Origin: Spirochaetota bacterium
GTDB taxonomy: Bacteria > Spirochaetota > UBA12135 > COTS27 > JAFLEE01
Reading direction: 5' to 3'
Length of the DNA stretch: 35,977 nt
NCBI GenBank assembly: GCA_017302015.1
Contig: JAFLEE010000055.1
Span: 1-35,977, forward strand
Of the stretch, positions 238-35,977 are shown one piece after another. Under the pieces are notes generated by a model that did not search any database, was not told where the DNA came from, and worked only from the letters and a program-made list of their open reading frames with translations. Within the stretch, counting starts at the first letter, position 1; each line of letters opens with the position of its first letter. Both the position numbers and the translations under genes were made by a program.

Positions 238-3200
238 CTAGCGGGCCGCCGCTGGCTCCCGGGGCGCGGGGACGGCCGGGCGCTTGGATTTGCGGTCGAT
301 GCGCCCCGTCTCGGTCTGGTGGGCCCCGATGACCAATTTCCCGAGATCGGGGTTGCGCCGGTGGCGCAGGACGTTGAGCATGAAGATGTCGAGCTTGTTG
401 ATCACGGAGGGCGGCAGGAGGTTGCCGTCGATCTCCACCGACATCACGGGGTAGCGCCGCTCGCGGAACCAGGGCGTCACCAGGCCCTCGATGACGCGCC
501 CGATGAGGCACGCGAAGGGCGCGATGTTCACGACCCCGGAGTAGTCGGCCAGCATCGCCGAAGCCGCCGCGCCCGTGGAGATGGAGATCTCGGACTGCAG
601 GTCGGCGGAGACGAACTCCCCCTCGGCCCGGGCCATGATCTGGTACATATCGTGCGGGCTCGACGGGATGAGGCCCGTCGCGTCGAGGAGGCGCTTCACC
701 TTGTGGTCGACGTGGAGTTTCCAGCGCTGCTCGATCTTGTAGTCGAGGAGTTCCTTGAACTCGCGCGAGGCGAAACGCCTCCAGAGGGGGACGCGTCCGA
801 GGGCCTGCTTCAGTTCGCGCTCGCGCACGAAGTCGCAGTAGTAGATCCACTCGGCCATCCCCGAGACCTTCCCGATGATGCCGCGGGCGGCGAAGTGCTG
901 GATGAGCTCGTCCACCGCGAAATCGTCGCGGCGCACGTAGATCTCCCCGACGACGAGGACCTTGGGGGATTCGGCCACGGGGACCTTGAGGGGGATGGCG
1001 GCCAGGCGCCGCGCGGCGTCCTTCAGGGCGGGAAGGGTGTTGCCGTGGCTGGCGCGCACGCGGTCCACCAGGCCGCGCCAGACCTCGTCGTAGAGGCGGA
1101 TGGCGGCCACCGGATCCTTGGCGCAGGCGCGCAGCGCGCTCTCGATATCCTTCATGTAGTCGGCGATGACGGTGCCCCACCACATCTGTTTGGAGAAGTC
1201 GGGCCCGAGTTCGGTGTAGGACTTGTCGGAGGAGAGGATGAAGATGCACACGTTCTCCACCCGGAGGTCCTTGAAGAGGTTCTGGTAGTAGACGTAGTAT
1301 TGCCCCGTGCGGCAGGGGCCCGTGGTGATGGGGACGAAGAGGAGGTAGATCTCGTCCTTGCGGTACTTCGGCGAGTTCAGGAACGCCAGGGCGTTGCCCA
1401 GCACCAGGAGCGCGGGCACGCATTCCTTCCCCGAGGCGTGGTCGCGGGCGCGCTGGAGCACGTGGATGTCGGGCACGGGGAGCACTTCGGCGTTCACCCC
1501 CGTGGTGCTCACGGCGGCCCCGATGAGTTCCGTGGTGAGGTTGCCCATATTGGAGAGGAGCACCTTCACCTTCGGGTTATTCCGGATAAAGTGCTTCGCC
1601 CCCGTGTGGCGGTCGAGGACGTGGAGGTCCTCCTTGCCGTCGTTGACGAAGGTGAGGCCGTTGTCGTAGCGCGCCTCGGTCTCGCCGCCGGTCTTGGACC
1701 GGTAGCCGTCGATGATGTCGAGGAAAGCCTCGACGCGGGTGTCGATGCCGGCGTCGGCGGAATGGGAGTCGAGTTCGAGCACGAGGAAGGGCTTCGTCCC
1801 CATCATCCACTTCACGTAGTGGAGCATGAACGAATCGGGCGCGCAGGAGAAGTTCGAGATCCACGTGAGGAAGATATTGTCTTCCTTCTTGATGAGCGAC
1901 GCGGCCTTCATGTCCTGCTGGCCGTAGTACCAGTACATGTTGTCGTAGATGTCCTCCCCTTCGAAGGGGAGGATATCGAAGGGCACGACGCTGAAGCCGC
2001 GGGAGGTGAACTTGCGCGGGATGCCCATATTGGCCTCGGGCACGAAGGCGTTATAGGGCCGGCCGAGGACGGCGATGACCGGCTTGGACTCCTTGCGGGA
2101 GGCCTCCAGGGCGAGATGGCCCAATTCCCGGGCGCGCTGGAAATAGGCGAATTGCTTCTCGGCCGCGTCGCGGTAGGCCGCCCGGGTCTCGGCGGCGGAA
2201 AAGCCCAGGCGCGCGCCGACCTGGAGGAACTCGGCCTCGGTCTCGCCCTCGCCGAACTTGTAGTGGACCACCGGGGAGAGGATGCGGCCCTCCTCGATGT
2301 CGGGGAAGGCCTTGCGGATATAGAACGGGAGGGTCTGGGTGATGGGGCAGAAGGTCGCGTGCACCTTCTTCTCGTAGCTCGGCATCGATTTGAAGTAGGG
2401 GATGAAGAGGTAGTCGACCCCGTGGTCGAGGATGTCCTGCACCGCCCCGTGGGCGATCTCGGCGGGGAAGCAATAGGCGCTCTCCATGCGCGCGGTGCCC
2501 TCGGGCGAGATGTTCTTGGACATCACCGTCTGCACGCCGAGGTTATGGAAGAACCAGGAATAGAGCGGCCAGAGCGTGTGGACGGAGAAGGCCCGGGGCA
2601 CGCCGACGGTGACCGTCTTCTCGGCCGCGGGCGCCCGCACCGGCAGGGTCTCGGGGGCCGCGCATTCGGTGTAATGGAGCTGGTTGCGCGCCTCCACCCA
2701 GTCCACGGCGGCGGCGATCTCCTTCTTCTTGCGCAGGTTGGCGTACTTGTTGCAGCGGCCGCCGAACATGTACTTGCTGCCGTTGACGGACAAGGGACGG
2801 ATCGGGCAAAGATTATCGCAGGCGTGGCACTTGAACTCGGCCCCGGCGACGATCTCGGTGGCCAGGATGCGCTCCACGTCGAAGAGGCCCTTGTCGACGA
2901 GGCCCTCCGCGAGCTTGCGCTTGGCGAGGATGCCGACGCCGAAGCAGCCCATGAGTTCGGGATCGGGCGGGATGAGGATCGGCTTGCCCAGGAGCGCCGC
3001 GAAGGCCAGGGGCACGGCGTGGTTCTTCGCCACCCCGCCCTGAAGCACGATGCGCCGGCCGATGGTGCGGTTGCCCACCACCCGGTTGAGGTAGTTCGAG
3101 ACGATGGAGGCGACGATCCCCGCCGTGATATCCTCGCGGGTGGCGCCCTGCTGGATCGCCTTGCGGATGTCGGAATTGATGAAGGCCGAGCAGTGCTCCC

Positions 3201-4602
3201 CGAACTTCAGCGGCGCCTCGGCCTTGGCGGCGATGGCGCCGATGTCGCGGCAATCCTTGATGTTGAGGTCGCCCGCGGCCGATTCCTCGATGAAGGAGCC
3301 GGTGCCCGCCGAGCAGGCCTCGTTCATGGCGTAGTCGATGGGCACCTGGTTCTTGATGAGGGCGTACTTCGCGTCCTGCCCGCCGATCTCGAAGAGGGTG
3401 TCGATCTCCGGGTCGTAGAAGGTGGTGCCCACCGCGTGGGCGATGATCTCGTTGTAGACCGCCCCGGTCTCGAGGAACACCCCGAGGATCTCGCGGGAGG
3501 AGCCGGTGGTGGCGGCCAGGGTGATGCGCAGGTCGCGGGCGAGGTCGAGGCCCTGGGCGGCGAGCTCCTTCTGGAGTTCGGTCAGGCAAAGCTTGAGCGC
3601 CTTCACGGGATCGCCGTGGGTGCGCCCGTAATGGCTGGCGACGATCTCGTGGGTGTCGATGTCGATGAGAGCGGCCTTGGTCGTGGTCGAGCCGCCGTCC
3701 ACACCCAAGATATACTCGCCGCCTTTCTTCGCCCGGCCGCGCTTGCTAGGGAGGTAGCTCACCAGGGATTCGGCGTCGGAGAGCCTGGGGTAGCGCTCGA
3801 AGGCGACCTGGTGGGGCTTGATGAGGGCCTCGGGGGGGGGGAGGATGCTGCCGTGCTTGCGCGCCAGGAGCGCCGCGCCGTAGGCCTCGAAGTACGCCGC
3901 CTGCTCGGGGACGATGAAGGCGATGTCGGGGAAGCGCTCGCGGATGAAGTGGACGATGAACGGGTTCTGGGTCACCCCGCCGACGAGGAGCACCTTGCCG
4001 CGGGTGACCTTGGCCCGCCGCAGGAAATCGACGACCTTATTGGCCATGACGTCGGAGAGGGAAACGACGATGTCGCCCTTGGTCGCCTCGCTCTTGTTGA
4101 GCTTGTGGGTGCAGTCGCTCTTCATGAAGACCGAGCAGCGGCTGGAGAGCTTCTTCACCGAGCACCCGGCGCCGACGTCGGGCACCTCGTCCAGGGTGAG
4201 GTCCATGCGGCCGAGCTGTTGGCGGAAGAACTCGCCCGTGCCCGAGGCGCATTTGTTCCCCGAGAAACTGTTCTGGATCTTCTTGTCCTTGTCGATGGCG
4301 TAGAGGATGAGGTCCTCCCCGCCCATGGAGACGACCGCGTCGATGTCCTCGTGGATGTGGCCCAGGGCCTCCTCCACGCAGATCGATTCGATGACGTTAT
4401 TCACGGCGAGGATCTTGCGGCCCTCCGTGCCCGTGGCGAGGCAGTGGAGGTCGGCCGGGAGGTCCATCTCGGCGAGCACGCGCTTCAAGGTCTCCTTGAA
4501 ATTGCCGTCGTGGGCCACGACTTCCGCGAGGCCGATGGCGTCGCCCTCGAGGAGGACGGCCTTGATGCTGGACGAACCGACATTGATGCCGAGACTGCGC
4601 AT
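238..4602 (-). CDS. Acyl-CoA dehydratase activase-related protein (two-ATPase-domain form)
   Basis: A 1454-residue cytoplasmic protein of the BadF/BadG/HgdC activase superfamily. The first ASKHA ATPase domain starts with GINVGSSSIKAV (about residues 5-16) and has MGGEDLI (about 93) and NKCASGTGEFF (about 115), where the Cys ligates the [4Fe-4S] cluster shared by activase dimers. A second ATPase domain has GVDGGSTTTKAAL (about 300), FEIGGQDAKYAL (about 402) and NEACSAGTGSF (about 425). A Cys-rich segment KCHACDNLCPI follows near 590, then a DUF2229-like region and a C-terminal HgdB/D-like dehydratase-component region. Known activases use ATP to drive an electron into a 2-hydroxyacyl-CoA dehydratase or benzoyl-CoA-type reductase; this long form is common in anaerobes but its own substrate is unknown. 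The ATG at 4602 is chosen over upstream starts because GAGGAG lies 4 nt before it and the family homology begins there. No separate dehydratase subunits are nearby. Confidence 0.9.
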   Translation of the reverse strand: MRSLGINVGSSSIKAVLLEGDAIGLAEVVAHDGNFKETLKRVLAEMDLPADLHCLATGTEGRKILAVNNVIESICVEEALGHIHEDIDAVVSMGGEDLILYAIDKDKKIQNSFSGNKCASGTGEFFRQQLGRMDLTLDEVPDVGAGCSVKKLSSRCSVFMKSDCTHKLNKSEATKGDIVVSLSDVMANKVVDFLRRAKVTRGKVLLVGGVTQNPFIVHFIRERFPDIAFIVPEQAAYFEAYGAALLARKHGSILPPPEALIKPHQVAFERYPRLSDAESLVSYLPSKRGRAKKGGEYILGVDGGSTTTKAALIDIDTHEIVASHYGRTHGDPVKALKLCLTELQKELAAQGLDLARDLRITLAATTGSSREILGVFLETGAVYNEIIAHAVGTTFYDPEIDTLFEIGGQDAKYALIKNQVPIDYAMNEACSAGTGSFIEESAAGDLNIKDCRDIGAIAAKAEAPLKFGEHCSAFINSDIRKAIQQGATREDITAGIVASIVSNYLNRVVGNRTIGRRIVLQGGVAKNHAVPLAFAALLGKPILIPPDPELMGCFGVGILAKRKLAEGLVDKGLFDVERILATEIVAGAEFKCHACDNLCPIRPLSVNGSKYMFGGRCNKYANLRKKKEIAAAVDWVEARNQLHYTECAAPETLPVRAPAAEKTVTVGVPRAFSVHTLWPLYSWFFHNLGVQTVMSKNISPEGTARMESAYCFPAEIAHGAVQDILDHGVDYLFIPYFKSMPSYEKKVHATFCPITQTLPFYIRKAFPDIEEGRILSPVVHYKFGEGETEAEFLQVGARLGFSAAETRAAYRDAAEKQFAYFQRARELGHLALEASRKESKPVIAVLGRPYNAFVPEANMGIPRKFTSRGFSVVPFDILPFEGEDIYDNMYWYYGQQDMKAASLIKKEDNIFLTWISNFSCAPDSFMLHYVKWMMGTKPFLVLELDSHSADAGIDTRVEAFLDIIDGYRSKTGGETEARYDNGLTFVNDGKEDLHVLDRHTGAKHFIRNNPKVKVLLSNMGNLTTELIGAAVSTTGVNAEVLPVPDIHVLQRARDHASGKECVPALLVLGNALAFLNSPKYRKDEIYLLFVPITTGPCRTGQYYVYYQNLFKDLRVENVCIFILSSDKSYTELGPDFSKQMWWGTVIADYMKDIESALRACAKDPVAAIRLYDEVWRGLVDRVRASHGNTLPALKDAARRLAAIPLKVPVAESPKVLVVGEIYVRRDDFAVDELIQHFAARGIIGKVSGMAEWIYYCDFVRERELKQALGRVPLWRRFASREFKELLDYKIEQRWKLHVDHKVKRLLDATGLIPSSPHDMYQIMARAEGEFVSADLQSEISISTGAAASAMLADYSGVVNIAPFACLIGRVIEGLVTPWFRERRYPVMSVEIDGNLLPPSVINKLDIFMLNVLRHRRNPDLGKLVIGAHQTETGRIDRKSKRPAVPAPREPAAAR

Positions 4603-4929
4603 GGGGCTCCTCAATTGCGGGAAGCGCCCGATTCCAACCGGGCGCGGGCGTGATTCGAACCCCGGGAAGAACGCGGCCGAAGCGGCCGGGCCCCGGGACC
4701 CTTTGGTGGCGCGGTGTGTGGCAACCGCGGCTTCCGACCCGCCAGGTGGCGGGCCAACCCGATGGGTCATTTTACCACCCCTTGGCGGTTTTTGGATCCA
4801 CTTTATCCAGAATCAAGACTGAATTAGTCCTATTAATTTCCCCGGAAAATCCGGAGTCCATTCACGCTCAAGGTTGTCGTGATCGACGGGAATGAAATTG
4901 GAAACCATCGGTGATTCGATTTCGGGTCG
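4603..4929 (-). other. Noncoding upstream region of the activase gene, rich in hairpins
   Basis: No gene was recognised here. On the minus strand, leading into the activase, there are perfect hairpins at 4738-4753 (6-bp stem, 4-nt loop), 4674-4688 (CGGCCG arms, 3-nt loop) and 4624-4645 (7-bp stem GCGCCCG/CGGGCGC, 8-nt loop); the last ends 22 nt before the start codon. I did not find a convincing -35/-10 pair. The stretch 4775-4925 is noticeably more AT-rich than its surroundings, so the promoter is probably there. Hairpins arise easily in GC-rich DNA, so a regulatory role is only inferred. Confidence 0.4.
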
Positions 4930-5122
4930 GTAAAAATGGAATTCCGATTCTCCTCACCTACCTTCAAAAGGCGAAGCCTTTTACCTGGCCGTCGACGGTG
5001 GTAGCCTTCTCCAAAGCGGCAGGTGGGAGTCCCCGGAGGAGCGCATCAGCGCCACCGACAATAATGCACCCGGGCCAAATGGCTGGCGCTGCGGCGCGAC
5101 GGAGGGGATTCCCACCTGCCGC
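4930..5122 (-). repeat. Solitary diverged copy of the structured 188-bp repeat family
   Basis: Read on the minus strand, this element has the same parts in the same order as the tandem array at 35.2-36.0 kb. First comes a long stem-loop: arms 5104-5122 and 5016-5034 pair over 19 bp with one mismatch, and inner arms continue the pairing. A CCACCG segment follows, then an A/T-capped hairpin at 4966-4982, then an AT-richer tail. Stretches such as GATGCGCTCCTCC here match GATGCGCGCCTCC in the array. It begins 65 bp after the stop of the glycoside hydrolase gene, on the sense strand. The outer arm sequences differ from those of the array but still pair. No conserved reading frame was seen. Confidence 0.7.
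4966..4982 (-). terminator. Hairpin at the end of the solitary repeat, possible terminator
   Basis: AAAAGGC and GCCTTTT form a perfect 7-bp stem around a 3-nt loop (TTC on the minus strand). It lies downstream of the glycoside hydrolase stop at 5188 and is the equivalent of the AAAAAGC/GCTTTTT hairpin in every array copy. The T run is short (4), so intrinsic termination would be weak. It could equally be an RNA 3'-end stabiliser. Confidence 0.4.
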
Positions 5123-5187
5123 GGGGAAAACGCAAGCCCCTTCGAGGTCAGGGTTTCAAAAATCCCCAATTTCCGCCCGACGGGCTC

Positions 5188-8100
5188 CTAGCGCGGCTCC
5201 GTTTTCCCGAAGGCCGCCGGATTCTTCTCCCCGCCGATGCCGGACGACCATTCCAGGAAGCCGGATCGGCCCTTGCCGTCGTTATTGTTCACGAGCACGG
5301 AGAAGCGCAGCAGCCTGGTGGAGCCGGCGTCGAAGGCGAAGGGATAGAGTTCGGTGCCGTCCAGATGCACCCGGTAAAGGGTGCGGCCGCCCTCGCGCAA
5401 GACGACCGCCTTTCCGTAGGCGACGAGCTTCCCGGCGGGGGTCCAACCCTGGGGAATATCGCCGCCGATATTTCCGGCCAGGGTCTTCACGAGCACGGCG
5501 CCGCCCTTTTGGCCGCTGACGACGAACTCGCTCTGGGAACCATTTTCGCCCTTCCCCTCCAGGTCGAGGGCGAATTGCAGGCTATCGCCGTTCCAGTATT
5601 CCGTCCCCTGGTCGATGACGATATGGTTCGGGTCGTCGACTTCGGCGAGCAGATCGAGGCCCCGGGCCGACATGGACCAGGCGTAGCGGGCCTTGAAACC
5701 GGCGGGCGCCTTCTCGGAGGCGATCCCCCGCCAAGCCCAATCGCCTTCGTTCCAGACGACGGGGACAGCGGCGGGGCTCAAATCGTTCTCGAGGACGCGC
5801 CCCCGATTCCAAACGCCGGCGGGCACGGGCCCGGCGACCGCCTTCATCTGGAGGGCGGGGTTGAGGGCGACCGCGGAGGGCGCCAGGGCCCGCAAGACGG
5901 GGGCGGGCAAGCCCTTGATGAAGAGCATCCGATCGGCGTGGACGGCGGGCGCGGGGGAGACCGGGAGGGGCGCCCCTTCCCACGAGGTCAGCTTCGCGCC
6001 CCCGAGGGCTTTTTGGATGCGCCCATCGAGGGGGGCCGGGGCCTTGGAGAGGCTCCACACCACCGCGACCGTCTTTCCCGCGTCTTCGAACCACAGGAGG
6101 CGCTGCCCCCCGTCGAGGTCGGCCACGCCCCGGTAGACGAGGCGGTCCTCCACCTGGTCGATGAAGGTGCGCAGCACGGCCGCGCACAAGCGGGGCTCGC
6201 GCCAGGGATTGCGGCGGAAGAGCCCGAAGGATTGCTGGAAGGAACCGTCGCCGACGGCCAGGGGAAGGAGTTCCTTCTCGCCGTGGCCCTCGCTCATGGT
6301 GAAGAGCGACACGCGCTCGGCGCCGTTCTGGAATTGCTCGCAGAGGTCGAGCACCATGCGCCGGGCGAGTTCCGCCTCGCTGGCCGCCTTGTCGCTGGCG
6401 TTAAGCAGCACCGCGTGCCACTCGGTGGACATCCACGGTTTGCTCGGGACCTTGAACTCCTTCTCCATCTCGCGGAAACCGCCGACGGCGGGCCAGGAGC
6501 CGTGCATGGTGAGCCGGTCGAAGGGCGCGCCGCCGGCCTTGAGGAACTCGCGGTAGAAGGGGAAATAGCGCTTGCCGCCCTGGCCCCCGAGCATCACCGT
6601 GCAGCCGGGCTGCACGCGCTTCAAGGTCTCGTAGCCGCTCTTCACCAACTCGGCGTACTTGGGGGTCTCGTCCCGCCAGAACACGCTGCCGGTGGGCAGG
6701 TGGGGTTCGTTCCATAATTCCCAGGTGGGGATGCGCTTGCCGTAGCGCCCCGAGATGGCCTCGAGGAACGCGGTCCAATCCCCCATATCTTTCGGCGCGT
6801 AGGCCGCGAACCGGCGCACGCAGATGTCGAGCTCCTTGCGGTCGGGGAAGGGGGAGGCCCAGGCCGGGGTGCCGAAGAGCGTCATGAAATTATCCCGATA
6901 GCCCAGGTGTTCGACGACGTCGAGGTCGCGGTCGAGATGCTTCCATTCGTAGCGGCCCCGGGCCGGGTTCACGATGAGCGTGGGGTCCCAATGGTCCCCC
7001 CAATTCACCCACAGGCGGGCGAAACTGAAGCCGATGTCGGCCCCGATGCGCAGCAAGCCCTCTTCCGCGTCGTCTTGGCAGACGCCGAATTGGGGGGGGC
7101 GCTTCGTCGTGCGGGGCGCCATGACCGCGACATTCTGCCGCTCCCGCTCGAAGCGCTTGGTCGTGCCGCGGCTGGTCTGGAGATTGTAGCCCCACACGAT
7201 GGGGGTCTCCTTCCCGTCGGCGACGAAGGCGAAGGCGAGTTCGTAGAAGCCCGGGTCCGTGGGCGACCACGACCAGGCGCCGGACCTCAGTTGGGCCCGG
7301 GTGGCGACGGCCTCGCCCACCTTCTTCCCGGAGGCGTCGTAGGCGCGCCCCCTGAGTTCGGTGATGGCCTCGGGCACCACGCCCCCTTCGGCGAGGAACG
7401 TCACCGGCTTGCCGAAGGCGAACCAATTATAGTCGGCCCCGGAGCGCAGATGGAGGGCGAGGGTTCCCTTGCGCCGCGCGCCTTTCTCGCCGGCGGCGGC
7501 GGGGGGCAGCGGGGCGGCCTTCGCCAAATCCGCGACCTCGTCGGGGGCGAGCACTCGATCGTAGGCGCGCACCTCGTCCAGGTCGCCCTTCATGGCGCGC
7601 TTGGGCCCGCCTGCATCGGCTTGGCCGAGGGAGACCCGCTGCGCCTCCACGAACGCCTGGTGGACGACGGTGCCCGTCCCCGCGGGAGAACCGTCGAGGT
7701 AGAAGGCGTAGCGGCCCGAGGCCCCGTAACTCACGGCCACGTGGGTCCACTGGTCGCGCTTCACGGCGTCGCGGCTCGACGCCACCACGGCGATATCGCA
7801 GCGCACAAGGCAGAGTTTCCCGTCTTTATTGACGCGGAAGAGCGGGCACCCGCGGACATCGCCCGCATAGAGCGAATGCTGGCCCTCCACGGAGTGGGCC
7901 GTGTCCTCGAGATGGGAAGTTTTGAACCAGGCGGCGAGGGTGAAGTTCTGCCCGAGCACAGGGGCCTCATCCCCCACCAGCCGCCCATTGACGCCGTCGA
8001 ACCGCACGGCGCGCCCCACGCGCCCGTCCACATAGATCGATCCCGAGCTCAGGTCGCCCGTGGACGCGCCGGCGCGGTCGAAGACCGTGAAGGCATCGGC

Positions 8101-8673
8101 GTCCGACTCCTCGAAGGTCCAGCACGCCACGGGGCCGCTGGCACCCATGCGCCTGGGGTTGGGGGCCAGGGTGGACTTCGCCGGGGCGCCCACCGGCTCT
8201 AGGGCGACGTCGCAGATCTCGAACCAACCCGCTGTTTTATAGAAGAGAAAATTGACGGTAAGGGCGGTGGACCCGTTGGAGATGGCGAGGGTGCGCGCGA
8301 TCTCTTTCCACTCGTCGCCCAAGACCCCCAATGGCTGCATTTCTTTCACCGCGGGTTTCGCCTCGGTCCCGTACTGGAAGAAATGCCCCTGCAGGGCTCC
8401 CTGGCCCCGGACTTTGAAGGTGAGCACCCATTTGCTCGCTTCGGGCACGGGAAGTTTTTGGGAGACCAGGCCGCCCATTCCCTGCGCATCGGGGAAGGCC
8501 AATTTGAGGGATGGACTGCCGCCCGATCCTCCCGTGAGTGTTTCGGCCTTCACGCCCCAGGCGCTCCAAATTTTCGAGTCCGGAGAGAGGCTATTCTTGT
8601 CGAGGAGCTTCTCGGCCCCCAGGGAGGCGGGAAGAATCGCGCAGAGGAACAGGATTACTAAAACGTTTTTCAT
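5188..8673 (-). CDS. Secreted multidomain glycoside hydrolase (LamG + clan GH-A barrel + CBM9-like)
   Basis: A 1161-residue exported protein. The N-terminus MKNVLVILFLCAILPASLGA is a clear Sec signal peptide. Next come a short carbohydrate-binding-like region, a LamG/concanavalin-like domain (about 165-395, with VACWTFEE, VDGRVGRAVRFDG and FTLAAWFKT), and a TIM barrel resembling GH39-type enzymes (about 510-840). In the barrel WELWNEP supplies the probable acid/base Glu656 and MSTEWHAV the probable nucleophile Glu751. The C-terminal region (about 1010-1161), with VDDPNHIVIDQ and YWNGDSLQFALD, resembles a CBM9-like sugar-binding fold. It probably cleaves an extracellular or periplasmic polysaccharide; the exact substrate is unknown. 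The ATG at 8673 has AGGGAG 5 nt upstream and begins the signal peptide. It lies 169 bp downstream of the polysaccharide polymerase and may be co-transcribed. The family assignment is by motif only. Confidence 0.85.
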   Translation of the reverse strand: MKNVLVILFLCAILPASLGAEKLLDKNSLSPDSKIWSAWGVKAETLTGGSGGSPSLKLAFPDAQGMGGLVSQKLPVPEASKWVLTFKVRGQGALQGHFFQYGTEAKPAVKEMQPLGVLGDEWKEIARTLAISNGSTALTVNFLFYKTAGWFEICDVALEPVGAPAKSTLAPNPRRMGASGPVACWTFEESDADAFTVFDRAGASTGDLSSGSIYVDGRVGRAVRFDGVNGRLVGDEAPVLGQNFTLAAWFKTSHLEDTAHSVEGQHSLYAGDVRGCPLFRVNKDGKLCLVRCDIAVVASSRDAVKRDQWTHVAVSYGASGRYAFYLDGSPAGTGTVVHQAFVEAQRVSLGQADAGGPKRAMKGDLDEVRAYDRVLAPDEVADLAKAAPLPPAAAGEKGARRKGTLALHLRSGADYNWFAFGKPVTFLAEGGVVPEAITELRGRAYDASGKKVGEAVATRAQLRSGAWSWSPTDPGFYELAFAFVADGKETPIVWGYNLQTSRGTTKRFERERQNVAVMAPRTTKRPPQFGVCQDDAEEGLLRIGADIGFSFARLWVNWGDHWDPTLIVNPARGRYEWKHLDRDLDVVEHLGYRDNFMTLFGTPAWASPFPDRKELDICVRRFAAYAPKDMGDWTAFLEAISGRYGKRIPTWELWNEPHLPTGSVFWRDETPKYAELVKSGYETLKRVQPGCTVMLGGQGGKRYFPFYREFLKAGGAPFDRLTMHGSWPAVGGFREMEKEFKVPSKPWMSTEWHAVLLNASDKAASEAELARRMVLDLCEQFQNGAERVSLFTMSEGHGEKELLPLAVGDGSFQQSFGLFRRNPWREPRLCAAVLRTFIDQVEDRLVYRGVADLDGGQRLLWFEDAGKTVAVVWSLSKAPAPLDGRIQKALGGAKLTSWEGAPLPVSPAPAVHADRMLFIKGLPAPVLRALAPSAVALNPALQMKAVAGPVPAGVWNRGRVLENDLSPAAVPVVWNEGDWAWRGIASEKAPAGFKARYAWSMSARGLDLLAEVDDPNHIVIDQGTEYWNGDSLQFALDLEGKGENGSQSEFVVSGQKGGAVLVKTLAGNIGGDIPQGWTPAGKLVAYGKAVVLREGGRTLYRVHLDGTELYPFAFDAGSTRLLRFSVLVNNNDGKGRSGFLEWSSGIGGEKNPAAFGKTEPR

Positions 8674-8842
8674 GGGAACTCCCTGTGGAATCGTGCCCCA
8701 AAAAGGCGCGGATCTCTTGGACGAAAGCGCATGGGGGCGAGCTTTCCGGGGTTCGGGACGGATTCGTCTATGGCCACGTCCTTCGCCGAGGAAGGTCAAC
8801 CCGTTTTTCGCACCACCGCCGGGGGGGCTGCGGAGGGGCCAT

Positions 8843-32595: not shown

Positions 32596-35130
32596 GTGGA
32601 GGCCCTCGAGTACCTGAGCCCGACCGTAGCGGCCCGCCTGGCCCGGGAAATCGCGGGCTACCGCGGCCAGGAGATCTTTTTCGGGGGGAACCTGGGGGAC
32701 AGCGGCCTCGTGGAAGAGGTCGAACTTCTGGCCCGGGGGAACCCGCGCATGGTGCCCGTGCTCTTCGAGCGGGCGACGAGTTTCGATGTCGTCCTCCACA
32801 ACCATCCCTCCTCCATCCTGGAGCCCTCCGACGCCGACCTCGAGATCGCCGCGTCCCTGGGGAACCATGGCACCGGTTTCTACATCGTCGACAACGCGGC
32901 CGCCGAGATCAATGTCGTGGTGCCCCACCGGGAAGCCGAGGCCGTCGAACCCCTCGACGAGGAGGCCCTCGTCCACCTCTTCGGCCCCGAGGGCGAGGTC
33001 GCCGCGAAACTCCCCGGCTATGAATCGAGACCGAGCCAACTCTCCATGCTCCGCGGCGTCATCCGCGCCTTCAATCGGGGCGAGATCTACCTCTGCGAGG
33101 CCCCCACGGGGACCGGAAAATCCCTGGGCTACCTGGTGCCCGCGGCGCTCTGGGCCCACCGCAACCGCGAGAAGGTCATCGTCTCCACCCACACCATCGC
33201 GCTGCAGGAGCAGCTCATCACCCGCGACCTGCCCCGACTACGCGAGCTCCTCGGGGTGGATTTCTCCTTCGCCCTGGTGAAGGGCCGCAATAATTACCTC
33301 TGCCGGCGGAAATTCGGCGAGTTCGAGCACGATGGCGGCTTCTTCGCCGAGGAGGACGCCGGCGGGGAGGACCAACTCGCCACCCTCCTGGAATGGGGCA
33401 AGGCCACCGACAGCGGCGACCGGGCCGAACTCCCCTTCGTGCCCTCGCCCTTCCTATGGGACCGCCTCGCCAGCGAAAGCGACACCTGCCAGCAGAGCCG
33501 CTGCGCCCACGCCGACCGCTGCCACGTGCAGAAGGCGCGCCGCAAGAACTTCGCCGCCGATCTCCTCGTGGTGAACCACCATATCCTCTGCGCCGACATG
33601 GCGCTGAAGGCCAAGGCCGGGCGCTTCAACGCCCAAGCGCTGCTGCCCGCGTGGAAGCGCCTCGTGGTCGACGAGGCCCATAACCTGGAGGACACGGCCA
33701 CCGACCATTTCGCCATCGGCTATTCCTCCCTCGCCATCGCGCGCACGCTCAATCTCCTCTCGAGGCCCGCCCGGGGGAAGCAGGCGGGCAGCGGCCTGCT
33801 GCGCCTCATCGCGGGGCGCCTGGGCCAGGGCCACACGCGCCTGTCGGCGGACGACCAGCAGACCGCCCTCTCGCTCATCGACATGCTCGAGAAGGACCGC
33901 CTCCAGCACATGGATCGGGCCTCCGATTTCCACCTCACGCTCTTCCAATTCCTCTCGGGGAAGGAGGGCGGGGATTTCGGCGAGAAGAAGTGGCGCGTGA
34001 AGACCGGGGTCCACCGGGAAGCGGGATTCCACGAGGGGTTCCGGGAACCCGTGGAAGGGCTCTCGGCCTCCCTCGAGGGCATCCGGCGCCGCCTCGAGAA
34101 ACTCGTCAAGATCATCGAGGACGAGCGGGACGACCCCGAATGGGACCGCCTCATCACCGATGCCCAGGCCTACGGCAACCGCCTCGCCGAGCCCGCGGGG
34201 GTGCTGGAATCCCTCCTAGACGACGCGCCGGCCGCAGACGAGGGCCGGGTGCGCTGGGTGAGCGCGCAGAAACTATCCCGGGGAGCCCTCCTCGTCCAAG
34301 CCTCGGTCTCACCCCTCGAGATCGGGACGCAACTTCGCGAGGCGCTCTTCGAGCCCGCCGCGACGGTGGTGCTGACCTCCGCCACCCTCACCGACCACCG
34401 CGGCTTCCAGTTCCTTCGCCAACGTCTCGGGCTTACGGCCGAGGGCGCCGAGTCGCTCTTCCGCCCGGTGCTGGAGGAATCGCTCCCGGCCGTCTTCGAT
34501 TACCGGGTCCAGTGCGCGGCCTTCCTCCCCGAAGACCTCCCCCTGCCCCAGGATCCCGCCTTCAACGAACGCTCCTGCGGGATCATCCTCGAGGCGGCGA
34601 CCTTCTTCCACGGGCGCACCATGGTGCTCTTCACCTCCTACGGCCAACTCGCCGCCATGCGCCGCATCCTTTCCCCTCAGTTGGAGGCCCTCGGCATCAG
34701 GCTTCTGGCCCAGGGGGATGCGCCGCGCAACCGGCTTCTCGACGAGTTCCGCGGGGCCGCCCCTACCGTGCTCCTCGGCGTGAACTCGTTCTGGGAAGGG
34801 GTGGATGTGCCCGGCGAGGCCCTCTCCTGCCTCGTGATCGTGAAGCTCCCCTTCGCCGTGCCCAGCGAACCCCTGGCGGCCGCCCGCACCGAGGCCCTCG
34901 AGCGCGCCGGCCGAAATGCCTTCTCCGAATATTCCCTGCCCGTGGCCATCCTCCGTTTCCGCCAGGGTTTCGGGCGCCTCATCCGCACCCGCAGCGACCG
35001 GGGCCTCTTCGTGATGCTCGATCGGCGGCTCCTGGACAAGAATTACGGGAAGGATTTCCTCAAAGCCCTGCCCGCGCTTCGGATTTTTAAGGGGAATAGC
35101 TTGCAGGAGGCGGCCGAAACCGTGATGTGA
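32596..35130 (+). CDS. DinG/XPD-type Fe-S helicase with N-terminal JAMM (RadC-like) domain
   Basis: An 844-residue fusion protein. Residues 1-115 form a JAB/JAMM metalloprotease-like domain with the full signature H68-N-H70-P, seven residues, S78, two residues, D81; Glu26 is the likely catalytic Glu. The rest is a superfamily 2 DinG/XPD helicase. Walker A is PTGTGKS (Lys175), the [4Fe-4S] cysteines are C236, C298, C303 and C309, Walker B is DEAH (359-362), and the C-terminal motor has TSATL, FWEGVDVPG and RFRQGFGRLIR. DinG enzymes unwind DNA with 5'-3' polarity and resolve R-loops and stalled forks. The GTG at 32596 has GGGGA upstream. The protein is complete, with the JAMM residues intact. 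Confidence 0.92.
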   Translation: MEALEYLSPTVAARLAREIAGYRGQEIFFGGNLGDSGLVEEVELLARGNPRMVPVLFERATSFDVVLHNHPSSILEPSDADLEIAASLGNHGTGFYIVDNAAAEINVVVPHREAEAVEPLDEEALVHLFGPEGEVAAKLPGYESRPSQLSMLRGVIRAFNRGEIYLCEAPTGTGKSLGYLVPAALWAHRNREKVIVSTHTIALQEQLITRDLPRLRELLGVDFSFALVKGRNNYLCRRKFGEFEHDGGFFAEEDAGGEDQLATLLEWGKATDSGDRAELPFVPSPFLWDRLASESDTCQQSRCAHADRCHVQKARRKNFAADLLVVNHHILCADMALKAKAGRFNAQALLPAWKRLVVDEAHNLEDTATDHFAIGYSSLAIARTLNLLSRPARGKQAGSGLLRLIAGRLGQGHTRLSADDQQTALSLIDMLEKDRLQHMDRASDFHLTLFQFLSGKEGGDFGEKKWRVKTGVHREAGFHEGFREPVEGLSASLEGIRRRLEKLVKIIEDERDDPEWDRLITDAQAYGNRLAEPAGVLESLLDDAPAADEGRVRWVSAQKLSRGALLVQASVSPLEIGTQLREALFEPAATVVLTSATLTDHRGFQFLRQRLGLTAEGAESLFRPVLEESLPAVFDYRVQCAAFLPEDLPLPQDPAFNERSCGIILEAATFFHGRTMVLFTSYGQLAAMRRILSPQLEALGIRLLAQGDAPRNRLLDEFRGAAPTVLLGVNSFWEGVDVPGEALSCLVIVKLPFAVPSEPLAAARTEALERAGRNAFSEYSLPVAILRFRQGFGRLIRTRSDRGLFVMLDRRLLDKNYGKDFLKALPALRIFKGNSLQEAAETVM

Positions 35131-35161
35131 AAACCTTTGTCTCGGTGGGACTTGGCGTTCC

Positions 35162-35272
35162 GGGGATCTGGGGGCTTCCCTTCCGGCGCGCCGCGGCGAC
35201 CATCGGGGTTAGTCGCGTGCGGGTTTGGGTGGGGTCGCCGATGCGCGCCTCCAGGGACGCCCCCAGATCCCC
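35162..35272 (+). repeat. Long stem-loop opening the repeat array
   Basis: The arms 35162-35201 and 35233-35272 are inverted repeats of 40 bp with 34 matching positions. The outer 14 bp (GGGGATCTGGGGGC with its complement) are perfect. The loop is 31 nt. It starts 31 bp after the dinG-like stop. Only the first copy has such long arms, since the outer left arm precedes the repeated unit; the later copies keep the inner pairing (GGCGACC with GGTCGCC). Confidence 0.75.
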
Positions 35273-35977
35273 TTGAAGGGGCCTTCACCACCGAGGACAA
35301 AGTAAAAAGCTTGCGCTTTTTGATCGTGGGTATAAGAGAAGCCTACTCAATTAAATTTCGGGCATCCCTTCCGGCGCGCCGCGGCGACCATCGGGGTTAG
35401 TCGCGTGCGGGTTTGGGTGGGGTCGCCGATGCGCGCCTTCAGGGACGCCCGCAGATCCCCTTGAAGGGGCCTTCTCCACCGAGGACAAAGTAAAAAGCTT
35501 GCGCTTTTTGATCGTGGGTATAAGAGAAGCCTACTCAATTAAATTTCGGGCATCCCTTCCAGCGCGCCGCGGCGACCATCGGGGTTAACCGCGTGCGGGT
35601 TTTAGTGGGGTCGCCGATGCGCGCCTTCAGGGACGCCCGCAGATCCCCTTGAAGGGGCCTTCACCACCGAGGACAAAGTAAAAAGCTTGCGCTTTTTGAT
35701 CGTGGGTATAAGAGAAGCCTACTCAATTTCATTTTGGGCATCCTTTCCGGTGCTCCGCGGCGACCATCGGGTTTTGTCGTTTGCGGGTTTTAGTCGGGTC
35801 GCCGATGTGCTCCTTAAGGGCGCACGCAGATCCCCTTGAAGGGACCTTCACCACCGAGGACAAAGTAAAAAGCTTGCGCTTTTTGATCGTGGGTATAAGA
35901 GAAGCCTACTCAATTAAATTTCGGGCATCCCTTCCAGCGCGCCGCGGCGACCATCGGGGTTAACCGCGTGCGGGTTT
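35181..35977 (+). repeat. Tandem array of a 188-bp structured repeat (four units and a fifth partial)
   Basis: Units begin at 35181, 35369, 35557, 35745 and 35932 (188, 188, 188 and 187 bp apart) and the fifth is cut by the window edge. Each unit has inverted arms GGCGACC/GGTCGCC, a CCCCTTGAAGGGG-like hairpin, a CCACCGAGGACAAAGTA segment, an A/T-capped hairpin and an AT-rich tail (GGGTATAAGAGAAGCCTACT). The third to last part is almost invariant, the first part varies. A period of 188 is not a multiple of 3, so copies cannot encode one continuous repeated protein. The whole region 35131-35977 has no gene I accept. Confidence 0.9.
35304..35321 (+). terminator. AAAAAGC/GCTTTTT hairpin, first of four
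   Basis: AAAAAGC-TTGC-GCTTTTT is a perfect 7-bp stem with a 4-nt loop and a run of five T at its end. It recurs unchanged at 35492-35509, 35680-35697 and 35867-35884. It could work as a bidirectional intrinsic terminator of the dinG-like operon or as a structural part of the repeat. Confidence 0.45.

Follow-up and report, generated by a model that had tools for sequence, protein, structure and literature searches.

Tandem repeats behind the dinG-like gene

The window, that is the whole stretch of 35,977 nucleotides analysed here, comes from a Spirochaetota bacterium, and a repeat array (35130-35977) occupies its right end. The preceding gene on the plus strand (32596..35130, taken from the ORF list) is predicted from its sequence to encode a DinG-like helicase, and its stop codon (35128-35130) adjoins the array. 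A preliminary description of this DNA had reported a tandem array of 188-bp units, and this was borne out by TRF analysis of the window, which gave a 188-bp unit in 4.3 copies with 93% matches (35172-35977), and by mapping of the copy boundaries. The start of the array had been placed about 30-50 bp after the dinG stop, which was found to be wrong, as the first copy begins at 35130, the final base of the stop codon. The array does reach position 35977 as described, but this position is the end of the contig (C117) rather than a point within a longer sequence; the array runs into the contig end and may be longer.

The first, gene-proximal copy was resolved by mapping the family alignment onto the window. 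Its core (35130..35302, plus strand), which comprises the paired elements P1 and P2, scored 147 bits with the covariance model R1 and forms 41 of the 41 model pairs. The P1 5' strand (35136..35150) is followed by the P2 5' arm (35163..35201), the P2 apical loop (35202..35232), the P2 3' arm (35233..35271) and the P1 3' strand (35285..35301), and then by a small hairpin, P3 (AAAAAGCTTGCGCTTTTT, 35304..35321), which was read from the sequence and is kept in relatives. The three inverted-repeat elements per unit noted earlier were confirmed as P1, P2 and P3.

Alignment of the copies delimited the first repeat unit at 35172-35339, unit 2 at 35340..35527, unit 3 at 35528..35715, unit 4 at 35716..35902 and a partial unit 5, truncated where the contig ends, at 35903..35977, all on the plus strand. 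The outer P2 5' arm is absent from unit 2, and in the later units generally the tail of one unit runs directly into the interior of the hairpin of the following unit, so that the outer 5' arm is missing. The nearly invariant 3' half of the unit that had been pointed out earlier is indeed seen, but it arises from this junction. Unit 4 is the most diverged (89% to unit 2); in it GCGCGCC is changed to GTGCTCC in both hairpin arms, in the same direct orientation. Neither a terminal repeat nor a transposase relic of the kind found in relatives is present in the window array, and a search of the array for a terminator-like site found none. As had been proposed, CRISPR and integron could both be ruled out, since the array has no spacers and no cassette ORFs, and isolated copies lie behind ordinary genes.

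Related loci in the host genome

The family was built stepwise: a DNA search of the genome yielded dispersed copies that were aligned with their flanks, and further searches then used their consensus and a covariance model, R1. Other copies, for which a covariance-model search had been suggested as a check, are present; the consensus search and R1 together brought the number of related loci in the host genome, 5.4 Mb in size, to about 30, a census that rests on covariance-model and BLAST searches. Tandem arrays occur at no fewer than five of these loci (C117, C82, C57, C140 and C119) and probably also at C44, with units of 188 bp in C117, 247 bp in C82 (4.6 copies), 212 bp in C57 and 179 bp in C140.

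The window itself contains a second, solo copy of full length (4871..5191, minus strand), 84% identical to the family consensus and situated behind a minus-strand gene (5188-8799). It begins at a CTAG target (5188..5191) whose TAG is the stop codon of that gene, followed by a left terminal repeat of IS1182 type (GAGCCCGTCGGGCGG, 5173..5187), as judged by comparison with the end of the Komagataeibacter IS1182. Its core (4984..5157; 184 bits with R1) is followed by P3 (AAAAGGCTTCGCCTTTT, 4966..4982) and by the relic of a transposase start (ATGGTTTCCAATTTCATTCCCGTCGATCACGAC..., 4860..4908), which diverges soon after its beginning; all these features lie on the minus strand.

Some further features of individual contigs were recorded. 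The ends of contigs C33 (1-3000) and C23 (1-5000) are shared at a poly-C run inside a transposase relic, and the two contigs are probably neighbours in the genome. On C158 (about 1550-3420), an element with a transposase relic and a run of CCTT repeats is flanked by two ssb-like paralogous genes, which are 81% identical in DNA.

Anatomy and base pairing of the element

In 5' to 3' order, the element consists of CTAG and the terminal repeat (full-length copies only), an AAACC box with the P1 5' strand, a linker, P2, a further linker, the P1 3' strand, P3, and a tail that is G-rich and then pyrimidine-rich; about 10 copies continue, 3' of the tail, into the beginning of a transposase gene. P1 is the outer stem, P2 a long hairpin of 30 pairs and P3 a small hairpin. 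The model of P1 and P2 comprises 41 pairs, and 95.8% of its cells are paired. Compensatory changes, with both sides altered, were found in 28 of the 41 pairs, compared with 12 in shuffles and 9-14 in slid controls; none of 500 shuffles reached the observed value. Covariation thus lies above all shuffles and all slid controls. The earlier view of the repeat as noncoding and strongly structured is supported. Private compensatory changes are also seen in individual copies, for example in C40 and C139.

Selection acting on plus-strand RNA should favour G-U pairs, and selection on DNA pairing should not. In P1 and P2 together there are 13 G-U cells and 20 A-C cells, both small counts; because G-U does not exceed A-C, the pairing does not point specifically to RNA, and the covariation in P1 and P2 is equally expected for a DNA hairpin. 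On this strand, the P3 of one subfamily contains a C-A mismatch that is fixed.

Position behind stop codons

For 24 of the 30 loci, the gene immediately upstream runs in the same direction as the element and ends near the core, as expected from the earlier claim of a location at gene 3' ends; were orientation random, this would arise with a probability of about 0.0007. For these gene calls a simple codon score, with the window as its training sequence, was used in place of a full gene finder. Where the terminal repeat is present, its TAG is the stop codon, and at most of these loci the stop lies at -29 to -31 from the core. Five copies (C117, C139, C82, C133 and C140) have no terminal repeat, and their core starts within 3 nt of the stop, which may be TGA or TAA as well as TAG. 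On C119, at about 17.7-17.9 kb, a further element copy begins a short distance past the 3' end of a putative tRNA gene that lies on the same strand.

The window is strongly depleted in CTAG, with 8 sites against 36 expected from a Markov model or 111 from base composition; three of these 8 sites serve as stop codons of genes. Targeting of CTAG, together with loss of intragenic insertions, explains much of the anchoring at stop codons; it leaves the sense bias and the copies behind TGA and TAA unaccounted for. A role of the hairpin at mRNA 3' ends is possible.

Relationship to the IS1182 family

Full-length copies of subfamily A begin with CTAG|GAGCCCGTCGGGCTG, and C158b and C33 are similar. 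The ends of the Komagataeibacter IS1182, delimited from three identical copies, are CTAG|CAGCCTGTCGGGTTG ... CAACCCGACAGGCTG|CTAG; its left edge, CTAG|CAGCCTGTCGGGTTG, is resembled by that of our element, and CTAG stands at both of its ends. The relic downstream of the core encodes the beginning of a transposase of the IS1182 family, which over 103 aa shares 46% identity with that of the Komagataeibacter IS1182, and the consensus peptide of the relics matched DUF772 with 24 bits. In the Komagataeibacter IS1182, 58 nt separate the end from the transposase ATG; here the core sits between them, with terminal repeat and transposase start on opposite sides in a fixed order in several subfamilies. 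Both are absent from several copies.

Transposase starts are broken in all of the roughly 10 copies that carry them. No intact transposase was found in the assembly, where a transposase domain search gave a single broken remnant, and neither the searched regions nor the genome yielded an inverted right terminal repeat; a short similarity that C6 and C145 share downstream did not lead to a right end either. Since no right end was found and the domain search gave nothing but a broken remnant, the copies are left-end relics and not complete insertion sequences. An intact insertion sequence with a P1-P2-P3 leader was looked for and none was found. Core homology alone places the window array, putatively, in the IS1182-type family, and the array is most likely the left-end relic of an element of this type. 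The idea of an undescribed structured RNA is not supported, as a terminal repeat of the IS1182 family and relics of a transposase are present on full-length relatives; a match to a transposon end, named in the preliminary description as evidence against that idea, was found in the IS1182 left end of these relatives.

Retention of the stems

In eight copies that bear the relic, the P2 arms diverge by 3%, P3 by 0% and P1 by 4%, against 14-17% for the linkers and the loop, 15% for the region of the terminal repeat and 22% for the transposase relic. Gene conversion among copies would also homogenise the loop. In the arrays on C117, C82 and C119, the gene-proximal copy forms 41 of 41 pairs and full-length later copies about 24-33, although in units 2-3 of C117 part of the loss of pairing is the duplication junction itself; in C57 both tandem copies keep pairing equally. 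These data favour a constraint on the stop-adjacent copy, and the hairpin has probably been retained as a 3'-end hairpin.

Distribution in other genomes

A DNA search of 40 other genomes gave no relatives, nor did R1 applied to 392 other genomes of the phylum, with at most seven candidates scored per genome. Degenerate scans for the apical motif were re-scored with R1: among the matches listed, those from GTDB, like those from IMG/VR, were short and GC-rich only, with a best score of 27 bits, and three that were folded (L131, L147 and L207) showed no extension into P1 and P2. Searches of plasmids and phages by blastn gave no relatives, the transposase was not found in viral contigs, and comparison with Rfam, also suggested earlier as a check, gave no family match at the gathering score. 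The element is likely restricted to this lineage, the genomes searched including no close relative of the host.

Discussion

With the IS1182 family (the Komagataeibacter IS1182, ISKpn6 and IS1272) the element has in common the left terminal repeat, the CTAG target and the transposase start; it differs in the stems of about 200 bp between repeat and transposase, the missing right ends, the broken transposases and the retention at stops. IS1272, a member of this family, has been reported to target inverted repeats including terminators (PMC5678879, PMC4923244) and to have a left end of 25 bp that is duplicated in tandem (PMC5678879). MITEs are likewise short, noncoding and structured derivatives of insertion sequences, but here there is a left end only, right borders vary and no paired terminal inverted repeats were found. 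REP/BIME palindromes with RAYT are also extragenic, often behind genes, and clustered or tandem; the element here is much larger (about 170-300 bp), keeps one fixed orientation to genes, lacks a Y1 transposase and is linked to IS1182. A REP/RAYT system was rejected, as PF01797 (Y1 transposase) was unmatched in the genome while controls matched. No example of a large leader hairpin conserved and retained at gene ends came up in the literature searched, which was not exhaustive.

We consider it reasonably probable that the repeats are left-end relics of an IS1182-family element with a P1-P2-P3 stem leader of about 200 bp, whose hairpin has been kept as a 3'-end element. The insertion sequence would have inserted at CTAG, often a stop codon in a CTAG-poor genome; its transposase would then have decayed, and the hairpin beside the stop codon would have been kept, serving the upstream gene as a 3'-end element. 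It might do so by blocking 3' exonucleases, by forming the end of the transcript or, as has been suggested for REPs, as a hairpin site in DNA. Behind dinG, an old copy may have been amplified by tandem duplication, units 2-5 being by-products under relaxed constraint. The broader proposal is put forward tentatively: within a single genome, some two dozen unrelated genes would have domesticated the leader hairpin of a transposon as their 3' end, compensatory changes would have preserved it in each copy long after the death of the transposon, and tandem arrays would have arisen from it.

Strong P1/P2 covariation, the sense orientation behind stops at 24 of 30 loci and the conservation of stems in old copies would also suit a transposon-independent structured RNA of mRNA 3' ends, acting as a terminator, processing site or binding site, with tandem copies as extra sites. 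We regard this as unlikely: G-U cells (13) do not outnumber A-C cells (20), P3 of one subfamily has its fixed C-A mismatch on this strand, the array holds no terminator-like site, Rfam gave no match, and in several subfamilies the core lies between a terminal repeat and a transposase relic. The same arrangement, in fixed order, and the lack of a REP-associated Y1 transposase in the genome, speak against the core as an independent REP-like palindrome family that IS1182 used as an insertion target, the transposon link being secondary. Insertion sequences targeting REP palindromes are known, from five families (PMC1525189), IS1272 targets hairpins and terminators (PMC5678879, PMC4923244) and several copies have neither terminal repeat nor relic, yet we find such an origin quite improbable. 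Finally, the copies could be neutral fossils, remnants of a recently spread insertion sequence without function, in which low stem divergence mirrors the youth of the last active copies. Every transposase is indeed broken, the copies differ, and the arrays expand and decay; this explanation is nevertheless very unlikely, as the same copies differ by 22% in the relic and 17% in loops but only 3% in stems, private compensatory changes occur (C40, C139), and the gene-proximal unit of C82 keeps 41 of 41 pairs while older duplicates decay.

If the reading as a retained IS1182-type leader is true, the family would provide a case, open to test, in which an insertion sequence does little damage by landing on stop codons and the hairpins left behind are seemingly kept by the host genes. 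An internal control is built into the arrays: in three of them, full pairing is kept by the stop-adjacent copy alone. The family also shows how the ends of transposons can give rise to tandem arrays that resemble structured RNAs of a new kind.
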